A stretch of DNA of 64,000 bases, taken from Prevotella sp. Lineage in GTDB: Bacteria; Bacteroidota; Bacteroidia; Bacteroidales; Bacteroidaceae. The notes under the pieces were generated by a model, which saw only the letters and a list, made by a program, of their open reading frames with translations, made no database searches and had not been told where the DNA came from. Numbering within the stretch: position 1 is the first letter of the stretch; each line of letters opens with the position of its first letter. The position numbers were made by a program, and so were the translations under genes. This document shows positions 1,576 to 62,139 of the stretch, piece by piece. The stretch covers positions 62,001-126,000 of the forward strand of contig JAFPZD010000014.1 in the NCBI GenBank assembly GCA_017417465.1, in the 5' to 3' direction.

Positions 1576-2202
1576 TTAGGGATTAAGGTAATTAAATACG
1601 GTTTTATAATATTCTGCTTTCTTTTCGATGGCCATGGGGTAGGCCCTTGACGAGGAAGGCATGCGATAGAGCCGCATCTGCCGGCCATCGATGTCGAACG
1701 TCACATAATCGCCCACTTTGGGCTCGCTGACAGCAAACTGCCGACAAGCTATCGTTGTAGCTAACTGCCCGGCAGTGGCCACGGCGCAGCACTGTGGTAG
1801 CCGTCGCAGCATGGCGTGCAGGTCGGTCTCTTCGATTACTGCCAGGTCCTTGTCGCTGGCGGTGTTCTTGGTGCGCACAATCTTGGTGCAGGTGTCGTAG
1901 AGGGCAATCCCCTGTTTACGAAGAAACGGCACCAGCTCGTCGAGCCGGAACCGTTTTTGCTGGTTGTCTACAAAGTGCTGCTTGTCGCCGAAGAAGCAGT
2001 AGCCGACGATGCGCCACATGTCGTTTTGGAAGTTCGGGTAATAGAACTTCATCGACCAGCGCTTCTCTGAGGGAGGGAAGGTGCCAAGCATCAGCAGACG
2101 TGCGTTGGCAGGCAAAAAAGGCTCGAAAGGGTGGTCGTCGCCCACCCCCAGCCGCTCCTCAGGGGAGGGGCGTTTGGTCAGCTCATCCTTCGATGTGGTC
2201 AT
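1576..2202 (-). CDS. Uracil-DNA-glycosylase superfamily protein
   Basis: 208 residues. The pattern LMLGTFPPS near residues 36-44 and MPSSSRAYPM near residues 180-189 match the two active-site blocks of the UDG superfamily (the distant branch often labelled DNA-deoxyinosine or mismatch glycosylase in Bacteroidales); between them is a YPNFQNDMWRI segment typical of that branch. It would remove damaged bases from DNA in the cytosol. The roughly 20 residues after the start (TKRPSPEERLGVGDD) are encoded by a degenerate copy of the palindromic repeat also found in mfd, so this N-terminus is probably repeat-derived. The start at 2202 lies 2 bp from the stop of the upstream gene, suggesting translational coupling. 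Substrate is not assignable. Confidence 0.8.
   Translation of the reverse strand: MTTSKDELTKRPSPEERLGVGDDHPFEPFLPANARLLMLGTFPPSEKRWSMKFYYPNFQNDMWRIVGYCFFGDKQHFVDNQQKRFRLDELVPFLRKQGIALYDTCTKIVRTKNTASDKDLAVIEETDLHAMLRRLPQCCAVATAGQLATTIACRQFAVSEPKVGDYVTFDIDGRQMRLYRMPSSSRAYPMAIEKKAEYYKTVFNYLNP
2140..2182. repeat. Degenerate half-copy of the 113-bp palindromic element
   Basis: The stretch from cccacccccagccgctcctc through gaggggcgtttggtcagc resembles the left half of the element at 33066-33178 and 35868-35980. It lies inside the 5' end of the UDG-superfamily gene but is read in a different frame from the copies in mfd. Confidence 0.6.
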
Positions 2203-6061: not shown

Positions 6062-6099
6062 GAAACTCACGCAGCGCAAGTGTAAAGCTTGCGATGGTA

Positions 6100-6423
6100 G
6101 GAAAGGAGGAAAAGCGGAAAAGCGGAAAGTAGACATTAAGGTATTTTGGGGGGTAGAAATAGGAAATACAATTTTTTAATAAAAACAACGAATTTAACGA
6201 ATTTAACGAATTATACGAATTACGACGCGTAGCAATTCGTTTAATTCGTTTAATTCGTTGTTGGAAAAAGGATTATTTATATATATTATATTTAAATAGT
6301 TATTTATTATAATTATATTAATATTAATAAATATTATTAAAATAACTCCTACTTATAATGTCTTATTTCCGTCTGAAAAAGGCTTAATGTCTACTTTCCG
6401 CTTTTCTGCTTTTCCTCCTTTCC
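6100..6423. repeat. Nested foldback (MITE-like) element
   Basis: The outer arms 6100-6140 and 6383-6423 are 41-bp inverted repeats with a single mismatch. Within them a second inverted repeat (6184-6213 against 6233-6262) is built from tandem cgaattta-type units. The remainder of the interior is very AT-rich (about 6270-6350). There is no open reading frame of note. It fills most of the space between the GH3 gene and the TonB receptor transcript. Confidence 0.8.
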
Positions 6424-6468
6424 CACAACAATGGGATGCCTGAAAGTACGTTTCGTTAAAGTCAATCC

Positions 6469-25575: not shown

Positions 25576-25658
25576 CGTCAGTCCTTTTGTTGCTTAATAC
25601 GCAAATTCCGTGGTCAGGGGGACATGACCGAGAAAGGAATTTTGGAAAAGGGGGGAGG

Positions 25659-26065
25659 AAATATGTGGCAGGCCAGCCCGCCAGTGTAGGGGCAGGCCCC
25701 GTGCCAGCCCGTTGGCCCGTTAGGGCCATTGTTCTCGTACGGTCGAATCGCCGTCCTTTCGGCATGGTGCCATCCCCTATTGGCGGGGGTCAAAAAAAGG
25801 CCCCCAAAATGGGGTTTTAAGAAGATACGGTATTGTTGCGAAGAAGATACGGTATTGTTGCGAAGAAGATACGGTATTGTTGCGAAGAAGATACGGTATT
25901 GTTGCGAAGAAGATACGGTATTGTTGCGAAGAGGATGGGGGTGTGTTTTTTTGAGGGTCGTAGGGGCGATTTTTGAAGGCCGTACGCGAACACTGGCCCT
26001 GACGGGCCAACGGGCTGGCACAAGGCCTGCCCCTACACTGGCGGCCTCGCCTGGCACATATTTAT
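25659..26065. repeat. 0.4-kb foldback element with 80-bp arms
   Basis: Left arm 25659-25744 and right arm about 25977-26065 are inverted repeats that agree over roughly 80 bp with about ten mismatches (shared core: gccagtgtaggggcaggcc). The interior holds the 22-bp array at 25821-25930. A further partial copy of the right tip (cctcgcccggcac) follows at about 26088-26101. There is no gene inside. It splits the sigma and FecR genes. Confidence 0.85.
25821..25930. repeat. 22-bp tandem array, five identical units
   Basis: Five perfect copies of a 22-bp unit that begins gaagatacggtattgttgcg, starting at 25821, 25843, 25865, 25887 and 25909; a broken sixth copy follows. Confidence 0.95.
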
Positions 26066-26128
26066 TACCGCCCCGTTGATATTGGCGGCCTCGCCCGGCA
26101 CGTCGGGGGAAACGCCCCGCCACATAAC

Positions 26129-30995: not shown

Positions 30996-31125
30996 GTCCA
31001 CAACAGGCGCCTGCGTGGACCCCACCAGGCGCCTGTGTAGACCGCATTTGGTGCTTGAGGGGATCTCCCTCGGTGTTTGAGGAGACCTCCCTCGGTGTTT
31101 GAGGAGACCTCCCTAAGCCCTTAAA
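30996..31125. repeat. Degenerate 22-bp tandem array (left)
   Basis: Units start at 30996, 31018, 31040, 31062 and 31083 (one 21-bp step), then a 23-bp unit. Conserved parts are the gacc start, an aggcgcctg or ctcggtgtttg core and the gg end. The array runs into the left arm of the inverted repeat at 31121. Confidence 0.75.
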
Positions 31126-31232
31126 GGAGACCTCCCCTAACCCCTCCTGTAGGAGGGGGATAAGTTACCTTTTCCGCGGAAGAAGTATATTATCCCCCTC
31201 CTACAGGAGGGGTTAGGGGAGGTCTCCTTTAA
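31121..31232. repeat. Perfect 43-bp inverted repeat
   Basis: Arms 31121-31163 and 31190-31232 are exact reverse complements, separated by 26 bp. Each arm contains cctcccctaacccctcc next to tgtaggaggggg, itself nearly palindromic. It lies between trpB2 and a convergent lipoprotein gene and can fold into a very stable hairpin. Confidence 0.95.
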
Positions 31233-31343
31233 GGTCTAGTGTGCTCTCCTTTATGGGCTAGTGTGCTCTCCTTGATGGGCTTGTGCTATCTCCTTACCCA
31301 CCAACTGTGCTCTCCTTACCCACCAACTGCCCTCTCCTTCTCC
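31223..31343. repeat. 22-bp tandem array (right)
   Basis: Units begin with tctcctt at 31223, 31245, 31267, 31289, 31311 and 31333, in strict 22-bp register. Neighbouring units share ggctagtgtgc or acccaccaactg. Confidence 0.9.
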
Positions 31344-32538: not shown

Positions 32539-35500
32539 TCACTTTCTCTCAGCAATGGCCGCCAATAGGCGCACGGCCTCCCCGACGGAGGAAACGTTGG
32601 CGATGGTCATCGACCGCTTGCCATTCTGCTCGCGGAACTGGCAGCGGCGCGGGTTTTGTGCCACGTAAGTGAGGATGCGGTCGAAAGCCTCACTCTGGTA
32701 GAAGGGGCTCTCAGCGTAGGAGACAAAATAAAGGAACATGCGGCCCTGCTTGAGCAAAATCTTTTCGCAGCCAAGCTGTTTGCCATAGCGCCGCAGGGTG
32801 ACGACGTGTAGCAGTTCCTCAGCCTGCGGGGGCAGTTTGCCGAAGCGGTCGATGAGGCGCAGGCGGTAGGCCTCCAGCTCGCGGTCGTCACGGGTGTTGT
32901 CGAGCTCCCTGTAGAGCAGCATGCGCTCAGAGTCGTTGGGGACGTAGGAGTCGGGGAAGTACATCTCGAGGTCGCTCTCCAGGGTGCAGTCGGCAACAAA
33001 GCCTGTCCCACCGAACCCACCTCCTTCCCCTCCCCAAGGGAGGGGCGTATGGTTACTTTTGGAAGACCCACCCCCTTCCCCTCCCCAAGGGAGGGGCGTC
33101 TGGTCACTTTTGGAGGCGGCTTTATCAGCGGCAGAACTATCCAAGCCCCCCTCCCTTGGGGAGGGGCTGGGGGTGGGTCTGTGGGGGTTGGTCTTGTTGG
33201 GCTCTTCGTTCCTCAGCTCTGCCATGGCCTCGTTGAGAATCTTCTGGTAGGTCTCGTAGCCCAGGTCGCTGATGAAGCCGCTCTGCTCGGCACCAAGCAG
33301 GTTGCCGGCACCGCGGATGTCGAGGTCCTGCATGGCGATGTTGATGCCCGAGCCCAGGTCGCTGAAGTTCTCAAGGGCCTCCAAGCGGCGGCGGGCATCG
33401 GCAGGCAGCGCTGCCAAGGGCGGAGCGAGCAGGTAGCAGAATGCCTTGCGGTTGCTGCGTCCCACGCGTCCGCGCATCTGGTGGAGGTCACTGAGTCCGA
33501 AGTTGTGTGCGGCGTTGATGATGATGGTATTGGCGTTGGGGATGTCGATGCCGTTCTCGACAATGGTGGTCGAGAGCAGCACGTCGTAGTCGTAGTTCGA
33601 GAAGTCGAGCACCACTTGCTCCAACTCTTCGGGTCGCATCTGCCCATGGCCGATGGCCACTCGGCAGTCGGGAATGTACTTTACAATCATGTCCCGCAGG
33701 TTCTGCAGGTCGTTGATGCGGTTATTAACGAAGTACACCTGACCGTTGCGCGACATCTCAAAGTTGATAGCGTCGACAACAATCTCGGCCGAGAAGGTGT
33801 GGATCTCGGTCTGGATGGGGTAGCGGTTGGGTGGGGGTGTCTGAATGATGCTCAGGTCGCGGGCGCCGACAAGCGAGAACTGCAGGGTGCGGGGGATGGG
33901 CGTGGCGGTCATGGTCAGCGTGTCAACGTTAGTTTTCATCTGGCGTAGCTTCTCCTTTGTCGAAACACCAAACTTCTGCTCCTCGTCAATGATGAGTAGG
34001 CCCAGGTCGCGGAACTTCACTTGTTTGCCAATAAGCTTGTGCGTACCTATTATTATATCTATCTTGCCCTCGGCCAGGTCCTTCAGTAGTTCGCTGGTCT
34101 GCTTGGTAGAGCGGGCACGGGTCAGGTAGTCAACGCGGACGGGCATGTCCTTCAGACGGCTGCTGAAAGTACGGAAGTGCTGGTAGGCCAGCACCGTCGT
34201 GGGCACGAGCACCGCCACCTGTTTGCCGTCGGTGGCGGCCTTGAAGGCGGCACGCACGGCCACCTCGGTCTTGCCGAAGCCTACGTCGCCACACACCAGG
34301 CGGTCCATCGGCTGCGGGCGCTCCATGTCGGCCTTCACGTCCTGCGTAGCCTTCAGCTGGTCGGGGGTGTCCTCATAGAAGAAGCTGGCCTCCAACTCGT
34401 GCTGCATGTAGGTGTCGTGACTGAAAGCGAAACCGCGCTGATGGCGTCGGGCGGCATAGAGGCGGATGAGGTCGCGAGCGATGTCCTTGATATGCTTCTT
34501 CGTGCGCTCCTTCATGCGCTCCCATTGTCCCGTGCCGAGGGTCGACAGGCGCGGTGGCTGGCCACCGTCCTGGCTCTTGTATTTCGATACCTTGTAGAGC
34601 GAGTGGATGCTGACGTAGATGGCATCGCCCCGCTGGTAGATGATCTTAATCATCTCTTGGTAGCCGGGCTGCCCCGTATTTCCGGGGCGTCCGGACTGCC
34701 TGGGATTTCCGGATTGTCCGGAATTTCCGGAATTTCCGGAATATCCGGCTTGCCCGGGCACCCCAGAGTTTATCGGCATTCTGACTAGGCCGCCGAACTT
34801 GCCGACGCCGTGGTCCACGTGAACCACGTAGTCGCCAACCTCGAACTCCTGAATCTCCTTCAGCGTCAGGGCCACCTTGCCGCTGCGTGCCTTGTCGCTC
34901 TTGAGGTTGTACTTATGGAAGCGGTCGAACACCTGATGGTCGGTGAACAGGCACACCTTCAGGTCGTCGTCGGCAAAGCCTTCGTGCAGGGTCTTGTTGA
35001 TAAAGATAAATGGACTTGACTGGGAGCCGGAGTTCGAGCTTCCGTTCTCGGCTTCCAGTATCTCCTTCAGACGCTCGTTCTGCTTCTGGCTGTCGGCCAG
35101 CATGTAGATGGCGTAGCCCTTCAGGCGGTAGTCTTCGAAGGTCTGTTTCAGCAGGTCGAAGTTCTTATGGAACAGGGGCTGCGCACTGACATGGAACGTA
35201 ATGGTCACCCCGGGCTCTTGCTTTGACGGGTGTCCTAACTCGATGCGGCGGAAGGGTTCGCTGTCGTTCAGGAACTGTGCAGCGGTGATCATCTGATTCT
35301 CGCGCCGCATCTCCTGTTCTAACTGGTAGCGCTCCACCTCGGTGGCATTCTCTAAACGTTCGGTAAAGGCCTGTGCAGAAAAGCCTTCCTCGTAGATGCG
35401 CCCAATGACGTCGTGAACGTACTGCCTATTCTTGAAGACAAGCACCGTGTCGGCAGGCAGGAACTTCAGCAACGACTCTTTCTGTTCGGCTGTCGTCAGC

Positions 35501-36378
35501 TCGGGCACGATGTCGGCTCTGTCACACCGCTGCTTCGATAGTTGGTTCTCGACCTCGAAGGTTCGGATGGAGTCAATGTCGTCGCCGAAGAAGTCGATGC
35601 GGTAAGGGTACTCATGGCTGAACGAAAAGATGTCGAGAATGCTGCCGCGCAAGGCAAACTGTCCCGGCTCGTAGACGTAGTCCACCTCCTGGAAACCGAA
35701 GTTGCGCAGCGTCGACAGTACCTGCTCGGTGTCGACCGTCTGGCCCTGCTCAAGGGTAAGCATGCGGCTGTCGAGGTTCTCTCGCGTCACCACCTTCTCG
35801 GCGAGTGCCTCGGGATAGGTGACGATAAACCCACCCCCTGCGCCTCCCCAAGGGAGGGGAGTTAGGAACCCACCCCCTTCCCCTCCCCAAGGGAGGGGCG
35901 TCTGGTTACTTTTGGAGGCGGCTTTATCAGTGGCAGAACTATCCAAGCCCCCCTCCCTTGGGGAGGGGTAGGGGGTGGGTTTATCAGCAGAAGAAGTATC
36001 TAAGCCCCCCTCCCTCGAGGAGGGGATGGGGGCGGGTTTCATCTTTGTCAGCACCTCCGTGCGCAGTATCTCGCTGGCGGCATCCTTTTGGCCGTACTTG
36101 ATGGCACGGCGGTAGCTCGACGGGAAGAAGAACACCTGGCTCGTGCCCAGCACCTGGCAGAGGTCGTGATAGAAATAGCCTGCCTCGTCGGCATCCTGAA
36201 GGACGAAAAGTAGTGGGTTACCTGTCTTCAGCGTCAAACCGCTGAACACCATTGGGGCGCTGGAGGCCAATAGCCCCTCGAGGAAAATGGGCTTCGTCCG
36301 CTTTTCCCCTAACGCCTTTGCCAGCTGCTTCACCTGCGGCAGCCGAGCATAAAGTTTCTGTAGTTCCTGAATGTCCAT
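32539..36378 (-). CDS. mfd: Transcription-repair coupling factor Mfd with three low-complexity insertions
   Basis: 1279 residues, about 120-160 longer than usual. Mfd releases RNA polymerase stalled at DNA lesions and recruits UvrA. The N-terminal UvrB-like region is followed by the RNA-polymerase interaction domain (FEVGDYVVHVDHGVGKFGG, about 515-600), a RecG-like translocase with Walker A GDVGFGKTE (about 697-705) and Walker B IIDEEQ, and the C-terminal D7 domain. Insertions: residues about 113-182 and 1059-1124, coded by the 113-bp palindromic element and fragments (PSPREGGLDSS, TPLPWGGEGGG); and about 536-575, a collagen-like Gly-x-x stretch within the polymerase-binding domain. The frame stays open throughout, and all motor motifs are intact, so function is probably kept. 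Confidence 0.95.
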   Translation of the reverse strand: MDIQELQKLYARLPQVKQLAKALGEKRTKPIFLEGLLASSAPMVFSGLTLKTGNPLLFVLQDADEAGYFYHDLCQVLGTSQVFFFPSSYRRAIKYGQKDAASEILRTEVLTKMKPAPIPSSREGGLDTSSADKPTPYPSPREGGLDSSATDKAASKSNQTPLPWGGEGGGFLTPLPWGGAGGGFIVTYPEALAEKVVTRENLDSRMLTLEQGQTVDTEQVLSTLRNFGFQEVDYVYEPGQFALRGSILDIFSFSHEYPYRIDFFGDDIDSIRTFEVENQLSKQRCDRADIVPELTTAEQKESLLKFLPADTVLVFKNRQYVHDVIGRIYEEGFSAQAFTERLENATEVERYQLEQEMRRENQMITAAQFLNDSEPFRRIELGHPSKQEPGVTITFHVSAQPLFHKNFDLLKQTFEDYRLKGYAIYMLADSQKQNERLKEILEAENGSSNSGSQSSPFIFINKTLHEGFADDDLKVCLFTDHQVFDRFHKYNLKSDKARSGKVALTLKEIQEFEVGDYVVHVDHGVGKFGGLVRMPINSGVPGQAGYSGNSGNSGQSGNPRQSGRPGNTGQPGYQEMIKIIYQRGDAIYVSIHSLYKVSKYKSQDGGQPPRLSTLGTGQWERMKERTKKHIKDIARDLIRLYAARRHQRGFAFSHDTYMQHELEASFFYEDTPDQLKATQDVKADMERPQPMDRLVCGDVGFGKTEVAVRAAFKAATDGKQVAVLVPTTVLAYQHFRTFSSRLKDMPVRVDYLTRARSTKQTSELLKDLAEGKIDIIIGTHKLIGKQVKFRDLGLLIIDEEQKFGVSTKEKLRQMKTNVDTLTMTATPIPRTLQFSLVGARDLSIIQTPPPNRYPIQTEIHTFSAEIVVDAINFEMSRNGQVYFVNNRINDLQNLRDMIVKYIPDCRVAIGHGQMRPEELEQVVLDFSNYDYDVLLSTTIVENGIDIPNANTIIINAAHNFGLSDLHQMRGRVGRSNRKAFCYLLAPPLAALPADARRRLEALENFSDLGSGINIAMQDLDIRGAGNLLGAEQSGFISDLGYETYQKILNEAMAELRNEEPNKTNPHRPTPSPSPREGGLDSSAADKAASKSDQTPLPWGGEGGGSSKSNHTPLPWGGEGGGFGGTGFVADCTLESDLEMYFPDSYVPNDSERMLLYRELDNTRDDRELEAYRLRLIDRFGKLPPQAEELLHVVTLRRYGKQLGCEKILLKQGRMFLYFVSYAESPFYQSEAFDRILTYVAQNPRRCQFREQNGKRSMTIANVSSVGEAVRLLAAIAERK
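33015..33178. repeat. 113-bp palindromic element, copy 1 plus half copy (in mfd)
   Basis: A full copy is at 33066-33178, with terminal inverted repeats of about 31 bp (acccacccccttcccctccc at one end, its complement at the other). A left-half copy precedes it at 33015-33063. It is 109/113 identical to the copy at 35868-35980 and read in the same mfd frame. Confidence 0.95.
34655..34768. repeat. Collagen-like 9-bp repeats in mfd
   Basis: Imperfect tccggattg-type units (tccggaatt, tccggattg) encode, on the minus strand, Gly-x-x triplets such as SGNSGNSGQSGN. Very similar repeats occur in dnaX at 45233-45330. Confidence 0.9.
35829..36038. repeat. 113-bp palindromic element, copy 2 with flanking half copies (in mfd)
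   Basis: The full copy is at 35868-35980, flanked by a left half at 35829-35867 and a right half at about 35979-36038. It differs from copy 1 at four bases. The distance between copies (2802 bp) is a multiple of three, so both read PSPREGGLDSS and TPLPWGGEGGG in mfd. Confidence 0.95.
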
Positions 36379-39653: not shown

Positions 39654-39716
39654 CCCGAGAATAAACTCGTAAAACCCGAGAATAAAAACGCGAAACCCGA
39701 GAATAAAACGAAAAAC
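39654..39716. repeat. 21-bp tandem array, three units
   Basis: cccgagaataaa recurs at 39654, 39675 and 39696, a 21-bp step. It directly joins the palindrome at 39710. Confidence 0.85.
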
Positions 39717-39777
39717 ATCCTGCATACCCTGCATACCCTGCACGTGCAGGGTATGCAGGGTATGCAGGATGTTTTTC
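39710..39777. repeat. Perfect 68-bp palindrome
   Basis: 39710-39743 is the exact reverse complement of 39744-39777, with no loop; the centre is tgcacgtgca. Each arm contains two tgcataccc units. No gene lies within 600 bp on the left or 260 bp on the right. Confidence 0.97.
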
Positions 39778-61404: not shown

Positions 61405-62139
61405 ATGAAAATCGGACTATTCATTCCATGTTACGTCGACGCGCTCTACCCCGAGGTAGGCGTGTCGACATTTAAGTTGCTTAAGAGCCTTGGCGTCGAC
61501 GTCGACTACCCCGAGAAGCAGACGTGCTGCGGACAGCCGATGGGCAACGCAGGCTTCGAGCGCATGGCAGTGCCACTGGCCGAGAAGTACGACGAGCTAT
61601 TCAGTGGCTACGACTACGTGGTGGCACCGTCGGCCAGTTGTGCCGCTTACGTGAAGGTGTTCCACCCCAACCTGATGAAGGGGAAGACGTGCGTCGCCGC
61701 CCAGAAAACCATCGACGTGGTGGAGTTCCTCCACGATGTGTTGAAGGTGCAGTCGCTGCCCGCCCGTTTCCCTCACAAGGTCAGCGTGCATAACTCATGC
61801 CATGGCGTGCGCGAGCTGGGCCTCTCATCGCCATCTGAACGTAACGTGCCACGCTTCAACAAGATCATCGACCTGCTGCGCCTTGTCGATGGTATTGAAA
61901 TCTTCGAGCCAGAACGCCCCGATGAATGCTGTGGCTTCGGCGGTATGTTTGCCATCGAGGAGCAGGCCGTCTCTGAGCGTATGGGCATCGACAAGGTGAA
62001 GCGCCATATCGCCACTGGTGCCGAGTATGTCACTGGTCCCGACTCGTCGTGCCTGATGCACATGCAGGGCGTGGCGCAGAAGCAGGGGCTCCCCATCCAG
62101 TTTATTCATGTCGTTCAAATTCTTGCTGCCGGCCTATGA
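61405..62139 (+). CDS. lutA: L-lactate oxidation iron-sulfur subunit LutA
   Basis: 244 residues. Two CCG domains carry the motifs QTCCGQP and DECCGFGGMF, plus PSASCAAYV and NSCHGVREL, together binding a 4Fe-4S type cofactor, as in LutA/YkgE. With LutB and LutC it oxidises L-lactate to pyruvate. Stop and lutB start overlap as ATGA (62136-62139). It is the first lut gene and follows aldA closely. Confidence 0.95.
   Translation: MKIGLFIPCYVDALYPEVGVSTFKLLKSLGVDVDYPEKQTCCGQPMGNAGFERMAVPLAEKYDELFSGYDYVVAPSASCAAYVKVFHPNLMKGKTCVAAQKTIDVVEFLHDVLKVQSLPARFPHKVSVHNSCHGVRELGLSSPSERNVPRFNKIIDLLRLVDGIEIFEPERPDECCGFGGMFAIEEQAVSERMGIDKVKRHIATGAEYVTGPDSSCLMHMQGVAQKQGLPIQFIHVVQILAAGL

Follow-up and report, generated by a model that had tools for sequence, protein, structure and literature searches.

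In-frame palindromic elements in mfd and other genes of a Prevotella genome, and protein slots with changing occupants

How does the gene for a large repair enzyme come to carry two nearly identical palindromes in one open reading frame (ORF)? The question is raised by mfd in a 64,000-nucleotide stretch of Prevotella sp. DNA (positions 62,001 to 126,000 of contig JAFPZD010000014.1, assembly GCA_017417465.1; hereafter the window), in which a 113-bp palindromic element is present at two sites, designated the N-slot and the C-slot (Table 1). An initial annotation of the window had described the element in mfd as a protein-tolerated insertion. We confirmed both copies and found that the range is wider: the element family is dispersed in the host genome, lies in-frame in ten other genes, and occupies a site in Mfd that is also occupied in other species. 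These elements are probably non-autonomous and similar either to REPINs, which are built from repetitive extragenic palindromic (REP) sequences, or to miniature inverted-repeat transposable elements (MITEs); they would have been copied widely, with tolerated in-frame copies persisting and a few linkers being repeatedly re-occupied.

The element in mfd and in the host genome

The coordinates of the two mfd copies and their identity at 109 of 113 positions were both reproduced, as was their common translation in one shared frame, PSPREGGLDSS...TPLPWGGEGGG. Identity is bounded by the element, with only 7/30 and 8/30 bases matching in the two flanks. Each copy is an inverted-repeat pair with arms of 48–49 nt that are 82–85% complementary and separated by 19 nt. 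Predicted folding energies of the corresponding mRNA segments were –82.3 and –80.4 kcal/mol (z = –7.3 and –7.4), and none of 200 shuffled sequences reached the same stability. The remainder of Mfd is intact, as had been proposed, with all five Pfam domains detected in the unbroken frame: UvrB_inter (residues 207–293), CarD_TRCF_RID (512–600), DEAD (672–832), Helicase_C (867–975) and TRCF (1136–1227). In Escherichia coli Mfd (6x26), the C-slot maps between residues 992 and 1007.

Half copies had been reported beside both elements, and we found them at both sites. Those at the N-slot represent either an older element with a newer one inside it or local half-duplications. Half-element duplication, acting locally, appears to have enlarged both mfd sites. 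The two full copies need not be independent insertions; one is probably a recent copy of the other, because their mutual identity is 96% whereas that of any other full-length genomic copy among the matches scored is at most 81%.

The host assembly is a metagenome bin of 4.42 Mb in 278 contigs (90.8% complete, 5.53% contaminated). A search of it with the 113-mer gave at least 126 matches at E ≤ 0.01, with 40 of 72 first-look candidates scored and the two strands of one palindrome counted separately. The core palindrome occurred 62 times per strand and the reversed-pattern control not at all; within the window, eight occurrences were found at two or fewer mismatches, compared with a mean of 0.06 and a maximum of 2 in 100 shuffles. 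The 40 genomic stretches examined contained 48 distinct element clusters at two or fewer substitutions. The common design consists of GC-rich hairpin arms, CCCACCCCC-nn-CCCCTCCC-nnn-GGGAGGGG, inverted around a variable centre with the recurring inner ends TGGTTAC/TGGATAG, and 21 paired elements in the host genome are such inverted pairs of REP-like hairpins. None of the 21 was flanked by an adjacent direct repeat of 2–9 nt, a result in which an offset duplication could be missed at edges set by the pattern. The 4-mers following the stem in 82 units were GGCT in 18, AGTT in 12 and CGTC in 2, and GTAG was absent from the 15 commonest. Comparison with known RNA families yielded three matches, all below the gathering score (mir-4433 at 35.1 bits, with 77 needed, E = 0.0002; and whalefall-1 twice), and assignment to such a family was rejected.

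Across the genus, the 113-mer was found in 39 of 150 genomes including its own (E ≤ 1e-6, up to five candidates scored per genome). A strict 30-base arm pattern occurred 25 + 27 times in the host genome and once among 392 other genomes of the order, with no occurrence in the two of these that belong to the same genus.

The initial annotation had further placed a relative of the element at the start of a "UDG-superfamily" gene and counted three DNA-handling genes in the window with repeat-derived peptide. The relative is indeed a degenerate half copy in another frame; the ORF that carries it (1576–2202) had no Pfam match at E ≤ 1e-4 to go with the label, and only mfd and this ORF could be identified among the three.

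Table 1 Features of the window, with positions counted from its first nucleotide
Feature	Position	Strand	Remarks
mfd	32539..36378	-	1279 codons, unbroken ORF
C-slot palindromic element	33066..33178	-	113 bp; between the Helicase_C and TRCF domains
N-slot palindromic element	35868..35980	-	113 bp, second copy; ahead of the UvrB_inter domain
C-slot tandem duplicate	33013..33063	-	51 bp, in-frame; copy of the 3' half of the element, 90% identity
N-slot half copy, 3' side as translated	35827..35867	-	direct and inverted repeat comparison
N-slot half copy, 5' side as translated	35981..36039	-	57-bp spacing to the inner one
Third length-variable place in mfd	34666..34761	-	within the RID domain; low-complexity peptide SGNSGNSGQSG, length varying among relatives; not the 113-bp element
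Degenerate half copy	2140..2182	-	NH2-terminus of the 1576–2202 ORF; two core mismatches; other frame (RPSPEERLGVGD)
Inverted repeat	25650-25742 / 25980-26072		93 nt, 87% complementary, 237 nt apart; outside the GC-core matches
Inverted repeat	6097-6147 / 6376-6426		GGAAAAGCGG-type palindrome; apparently between main ORFs
Inverted repeat	31116-31237		apparently between main ORFs
Inverted repeat	39710-39777		34/34 complementary, no loop; apparently between main ORFs

In-frame sites in other proteins of the host

Twelve in-frame sites of the element family were found in 11 proteins, two of the sites being in Mfd. The other carriers are a UvrA-type protein, RecG, LigA, MutS2, DnaG, FtsY, a MetH-like protein, GH3/OlsH, a hybrid histidine kinase and a VapE-like protein. 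Three ambiguous cases were excluded from this count: another site within the MetH-like ORF (L070; L and G numbers are our own labels), an LptD ORF (L060) and a DUF559–IspF junction (L074). The site lies between Pfam domains in FtsY, RecG, the MetH-like and VapE-like proteins and the histidine kinase, as it does at the Mfd C-slot, and just ahead of a Pfam domain in MutS2. Those in LigA (adenylation domain), DnaG (DNAG_N) and GH3/OlsH (GH3_M) fall within a domain and may be surface loops. The 5' arm is translated as PSPREG or a close variant at all 12 sites, and the 3' arm, where retained, as PLPWGG or a close variant. Six of the 11 carrier genes, Mfd included, function in DNA repair or replication, a striking share but a raw count. 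Half-element tandem duplications are present in the UvrA-type and MetH-like genes as well as at both mfd sites, and the UvrA-type protein (L063), which contains four repeat units, is itself divergent. Matches to this protein were obtained in 20 of 25 relatives (35–45% identity); every one ended before the insert, and the protein was therefore dropped as an empty-site comparison.

Two further observations concern element arms in coding sequence. In L074 (3042–3983), a half element connects a DUF559 domain to IspF within a single reading frame, possibly a gene fusion made by the repeat. The 3' arm was also found, as ILAPLPWGGVGGGLLLTSC, within the signal peptide region of ten predicted exported proteins of the host genome (L076, L079, L080, L081, L085, L087, L089, L090, L092 and L097), the start being taken as the nearest upstream Met. 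Seven of these matched SusD in Pfam, one is a fasciclin protein, one an S41 peptidase, and one had no Pfam match. An arm core lay up to 160 nt upstream of the start in eight of the ten, such that the translation start would be bracketed by a hairpin pair.

Orthologous slots in Mfd, DnaG and LigA

To compare the Mfd C-slot across species, we assembled 30 loci from genomes of the genus, including the host, and 80 named records, with some species being present in both sets. These 110 genes gave 101 C-slots, 88 of them distinct, with nine genes unparsed. An inverted-repeat pair was present in 47 of the 88 distinct slots, defined by a score of at least 13, a cut-off chosen after inspection of the scores, that also exceeded all 40 codon shuffles. 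The complete genome of P. communis E15-14 (L160) has such a palindromic slot, with a score of 17 that exceeded 40 of 40 shuffles. Among the Mfd orthologues, distant members have a short acidic linker, EFQDLYAEQLAEGEELTGED, at this position. The initial annotation had called for a comparison of Mfd orthologues. It bore out the view that the segments are not conserved; the expected target duplications had no counterpart beside the 21 paired elements of the host genome.

The arms of the C-slot palindromes appeared to be of about nine kinds by eye. Pairwise alignment, performed with one representative each, resolved five groups without detectable mutual similarity: the GC arm (with CTCCAAAGGAGG); GCCCCC...GAGGGGG; ATTGACCATTCACC; AAAGTGAAGAAGG; and a purine-rich group (TGAGAACGGAGAAC, ATGAGAAATGAGG, GAACGAGGAAGGAG and GAAAGATGAGAG) in which several pairs weakly resemble each other. 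A count of at least seven unrelated families was reduced to five, given the weak likeness among the purine-rich arms and the similarity of the CTCCAAAGGAGG arm to the GC arm. The G097 insert, from another species, is dispersed in its own genome, with at least 52 matches (40 of 140 candidates scored) and a best other copy of 95% identity over 118 nt, and its family gave 23 matches in the host genome.

Strong inverted repeats in 96 distinct full-length mfd genes were clustered at a few places, the C-slot foremost (44 + 5 genes), with residues ~120–180 (11 genes), 440–480 (10) and 560–600 (4) contributing most of the remainder and bins 40, 400, 520 and 880 one gene each. In twelve genes, an inverted repeat was located at the very beginning of the frame, which, being delimited by stop codons, may take in upstream DNA. 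On an Mfd tree of 96 genes (8 of unknown state), used without support values, slot state required 36 changes, compared with a mean of 41.6 and a minimum of 36 in 200 label shuffles. Given this difference from the shuffled mean, the occupant of the C-slot appears to track the tree weakly, with some phylogenetic signal and a turnover close to random.

DnaG provides a second slot of this kind. Among 25 relatives, 21 were parsed and four were not; the slot consists of 8 residues (as in IENERGLY) in 13 and of 16–20 residues in four, with no palindrome in either case, and it contains a palindromic insert in the remaining four. These inserts and that of the host gene each exceeded 40 of 40 codon shuffles. 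As assigned from their peptides, they are of the GC type in three genomes including the host, of a TGAGAACGG type in G022 and of an RYEV type in G051. The LigA slot comprises 82 residues in the host and 9–20 in all 22 relatives from which it was extracted. The LigA sample contained 30 genomes, eight of which were left out (three without a match and five with only a 30–33% match lacking the slot motif), and three loci were additional fragments of genomes already in the count. The insert is thus lacking from orthologues in all 22 relatives for LigA and, in the sense of no palindrome, in 17 of 21 for DnaG, both being species-level comparisons. The presence of dissimilar palindromes at the same Mfd and DnaG sites in related species suggests that tolerant sites have been occupied repeatedly.

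Origin of the inserts and relation to known elements

A mechanism consistent with these results can be outlined. The whole element would spread by copy-and-paste, perhaps passing through a single-stranded hairpin, and would leave no target duplication. Copies that land in genes would survive if their length is a multiple of three bases, their frame is open and the site is a flexible linker or loop. In a small number of linkers, chiefly the one ahead of the last Mfd domain, tolerance may be such that inserts are lost and replaced by those of whatever repeat family the lineage has active, and the inserted peptide and mRNA hairpin would be mostly neutral passengers.

Several observations weigh against this interpretation. 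An open frame explains the shared frame only in part: stop codons were present in 60 of 82 units in the PLPKGG frame, 29 in the PSPREG frame and 27 in the PPQGRG frame, so that the notion of a single open frame is only partly true, yet all 12 sites use PSPREG. No significant palindrome was detected in 41 of the 88 C-slots (scores of 4–11), 9 of the 110 Mfd genes gave no slot, and the score of 13 for L144, one of the 47 positives, was also reached in 2 of the 22 control segments taken from that gene. A second foreign insert, L030, is barely dispersed, with seven matches in its genome (G105), two of them at the query site, and its family gave ten, mostly partial, matches in the host genome. An SKSNQ-like motif ahead of the 3' arm suggests that the linker may in part be shared by descent among species. 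The closest different species among the 30 loci from the genus shares 79% Mfd identity (residues 184–1276), and one near-identical record (L137) has the same N-slot copy; because no strain-level empty site was seen, insertion is inferred across large distances. Finally, Y1_Tnp genes, as candidate movers, were not associated with the element, being present in 26 of 39 positive and 62 of 111 negative genomes (p = 0.26), or 9 of 39 and 22 of 111 for strong matches only (p = 0.65), where negative means not found with up to five candidates scored at E ≤ 1e-6. The host genome has two such genes, and no element unit lies within the surrounding stretches of 3.2–3.3 kb. A Y1 or REP-associated tyrosine transposase (RAYT) was rejected as the mover on these grounds, at the search depth stated, and derivation as a MITE of a DDE transposase gains no support from the 21 paired elements, which had no adjacent target-site duplication.

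The main competing account replaces transposition with recombination, the N-slot copy being a duplicate of the C-slot copy, or a product of ectopic conversion by it, through arm homology, and the slots being overwritten in recombination with genomic repeats. The closeness of the two mfd copies relative to all other full-length copies favours it, and the half-element tandem duplications in mfd and the UvrA-type and MetH-like genes indicate that slippage or recombination at the arms does act. We nevertheless consider it unlikely, given that identity stops at the element termini, that the occupants of one slot include arm groups without detectable similarity through which to recombine, and that in relatives the LigA slots and most of those in DnaG offer no starting arm. 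Selection for a palindrome at these slots would account for the convergence of dissimilar arms on one position in both Mfd and DnaG: a strong DNA or mRNA hairpin might be useful in repair and replication genes, through ribosome pausing ahead of a domain or structure-dependent autoregulation, with any local palindrome serving. The mRNA hairpins of about –80 kcal/mol and the share of repair and replication genes among the carriers fit this account, as does the conspicuous presence of repair genes among REP-carrying genes elsewhere (PMC3733652). However, no significant palindrome was detected in 41 of 88 Mfd slots, 17 of 21 DnaG and 22 of 22 LigA relatives manage without one, and the repair enrichment is a raw count, so that we regard such selection as improbable. 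A specific form of the idea, in which the Mfd linker before the last domain and the DnaG N-domain loop are dedicated slots refilled because the hairpin is useful, for instance in stalling polymerase or ribosome for self-regulation, is quite unlikely as well. If true, it would amount to convergent selection on structure with the sequence turning over, and would explain the long-noticed REPs in repair genes.

Two other possibilities were considered. The inserts might be artefacts of assembly, the host genome being a fragmented and partly contaminated bin, but this is very improbable. The N-slot is reproduced in contig JAFPVW010000106.1 (Prevotella sp. RGIG1522, goat abomasum) with two differences in 5,482 bp, which places the host in that species or very near it, and palindromic slots were found in many other assemblies, including that of P. 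communis; the goat contig stops before the C-slot and may derive from the same samples. There is scarcely any chance that the segments are conserved ancestral parts of Mfd. Many orthologues of the clade do have some extra residues at the site, but their sequences differ widely among species and distant members have the short acidic linker. The many copies of the element dispersed in the genome, together with the divergent slots of orthologues, rule out conserved Mfd sequence, the outcome that the initial annotation had named as fatal to its own proposal.

Its comparison with the palindromic elements of Rickettsia, by contrast, gains support from the genomic matches and from orthologues without conserved segments. 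Those elements, described by Ogata and co-workers, are reportedly palindromic sequences that many unrelated proteins tolerate in-frame. The Prevotella family is likewise palindromic, dispersed and multi-copy, lies in-frame in unrelated proteins with recognisable domains, and is lacking in the LigA and most of the DnaG orthologues compared. The host is different, the likeness drawn is one of working, and in Prevotella palindromes of several kinds share a slot. REPINs consist of two REP-like hairpins in inverted orientation that form one mobile unit of ~100 bp, and they are mostly described as extragenic. The inverted hairpin pair is common to the Prevotella element, for which an association with RAYT was not found here.

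The 2013 survey describes REPs tagged with GTAG or CGTC that lie in-frame in ORFs singly, paired or grouped; their carriers include uvrA, uvrB, recB and the genes for DNA polymerase I, DnaE2 and ligase, with several inserts in some genes (PMC3733652). Its authors propose insertion into flexible linkers or loops, speculate on mutator effects, and note CGTC repeats in Bacteroidetes too (PMC3733652). The Prevotella element resembles these short palindromes in its presence in repair and replication proteins and differs in that neither tag regularly follows its stem. The sections of the survey considered here describe no slot filled by dissimilar palindromes in many species, though they report different REPs at about the same recB site in X. 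campestris and X. oryzae (PMC3733652). The enterobacterial repeats RU-1, RU-2 and RU-3 are MITE-like sequences with open frames inside annotated genes, some with predicted signal peptides; they are similar in their genic open frames, and, compared by description, no recurrent orthologous slot is mentioned in the abstract (Delihas 2007, PMC2759123).

Given the survey and the Rickettsia elements, the general phenomenon of in-frame REPs in repair genes is already known (PMC3733652). This family, the Mfd and DnaG slots, and a single slot with dissimilar palindromes were not found in the literature searched, which comprised titles and the beginnings of abstracts and included few subscription journals. 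Orthologous slots whose occupants change are of greater interest than the pair of copies in mfd. Of the distinct Mfd slots examined, about half are occupied, by at least five arm groups, the DnaG site by at least two, and empty and filled states coexist. This makes it possible to test how palindromes come to lie in repair genes, be it through chance tolerance, a preference for certain targets or selection, and which enzyme mobilises such small repeats in Bacteroidota. In addition, the slots reveal where large repair enzymes accommodate tens of extra residues.

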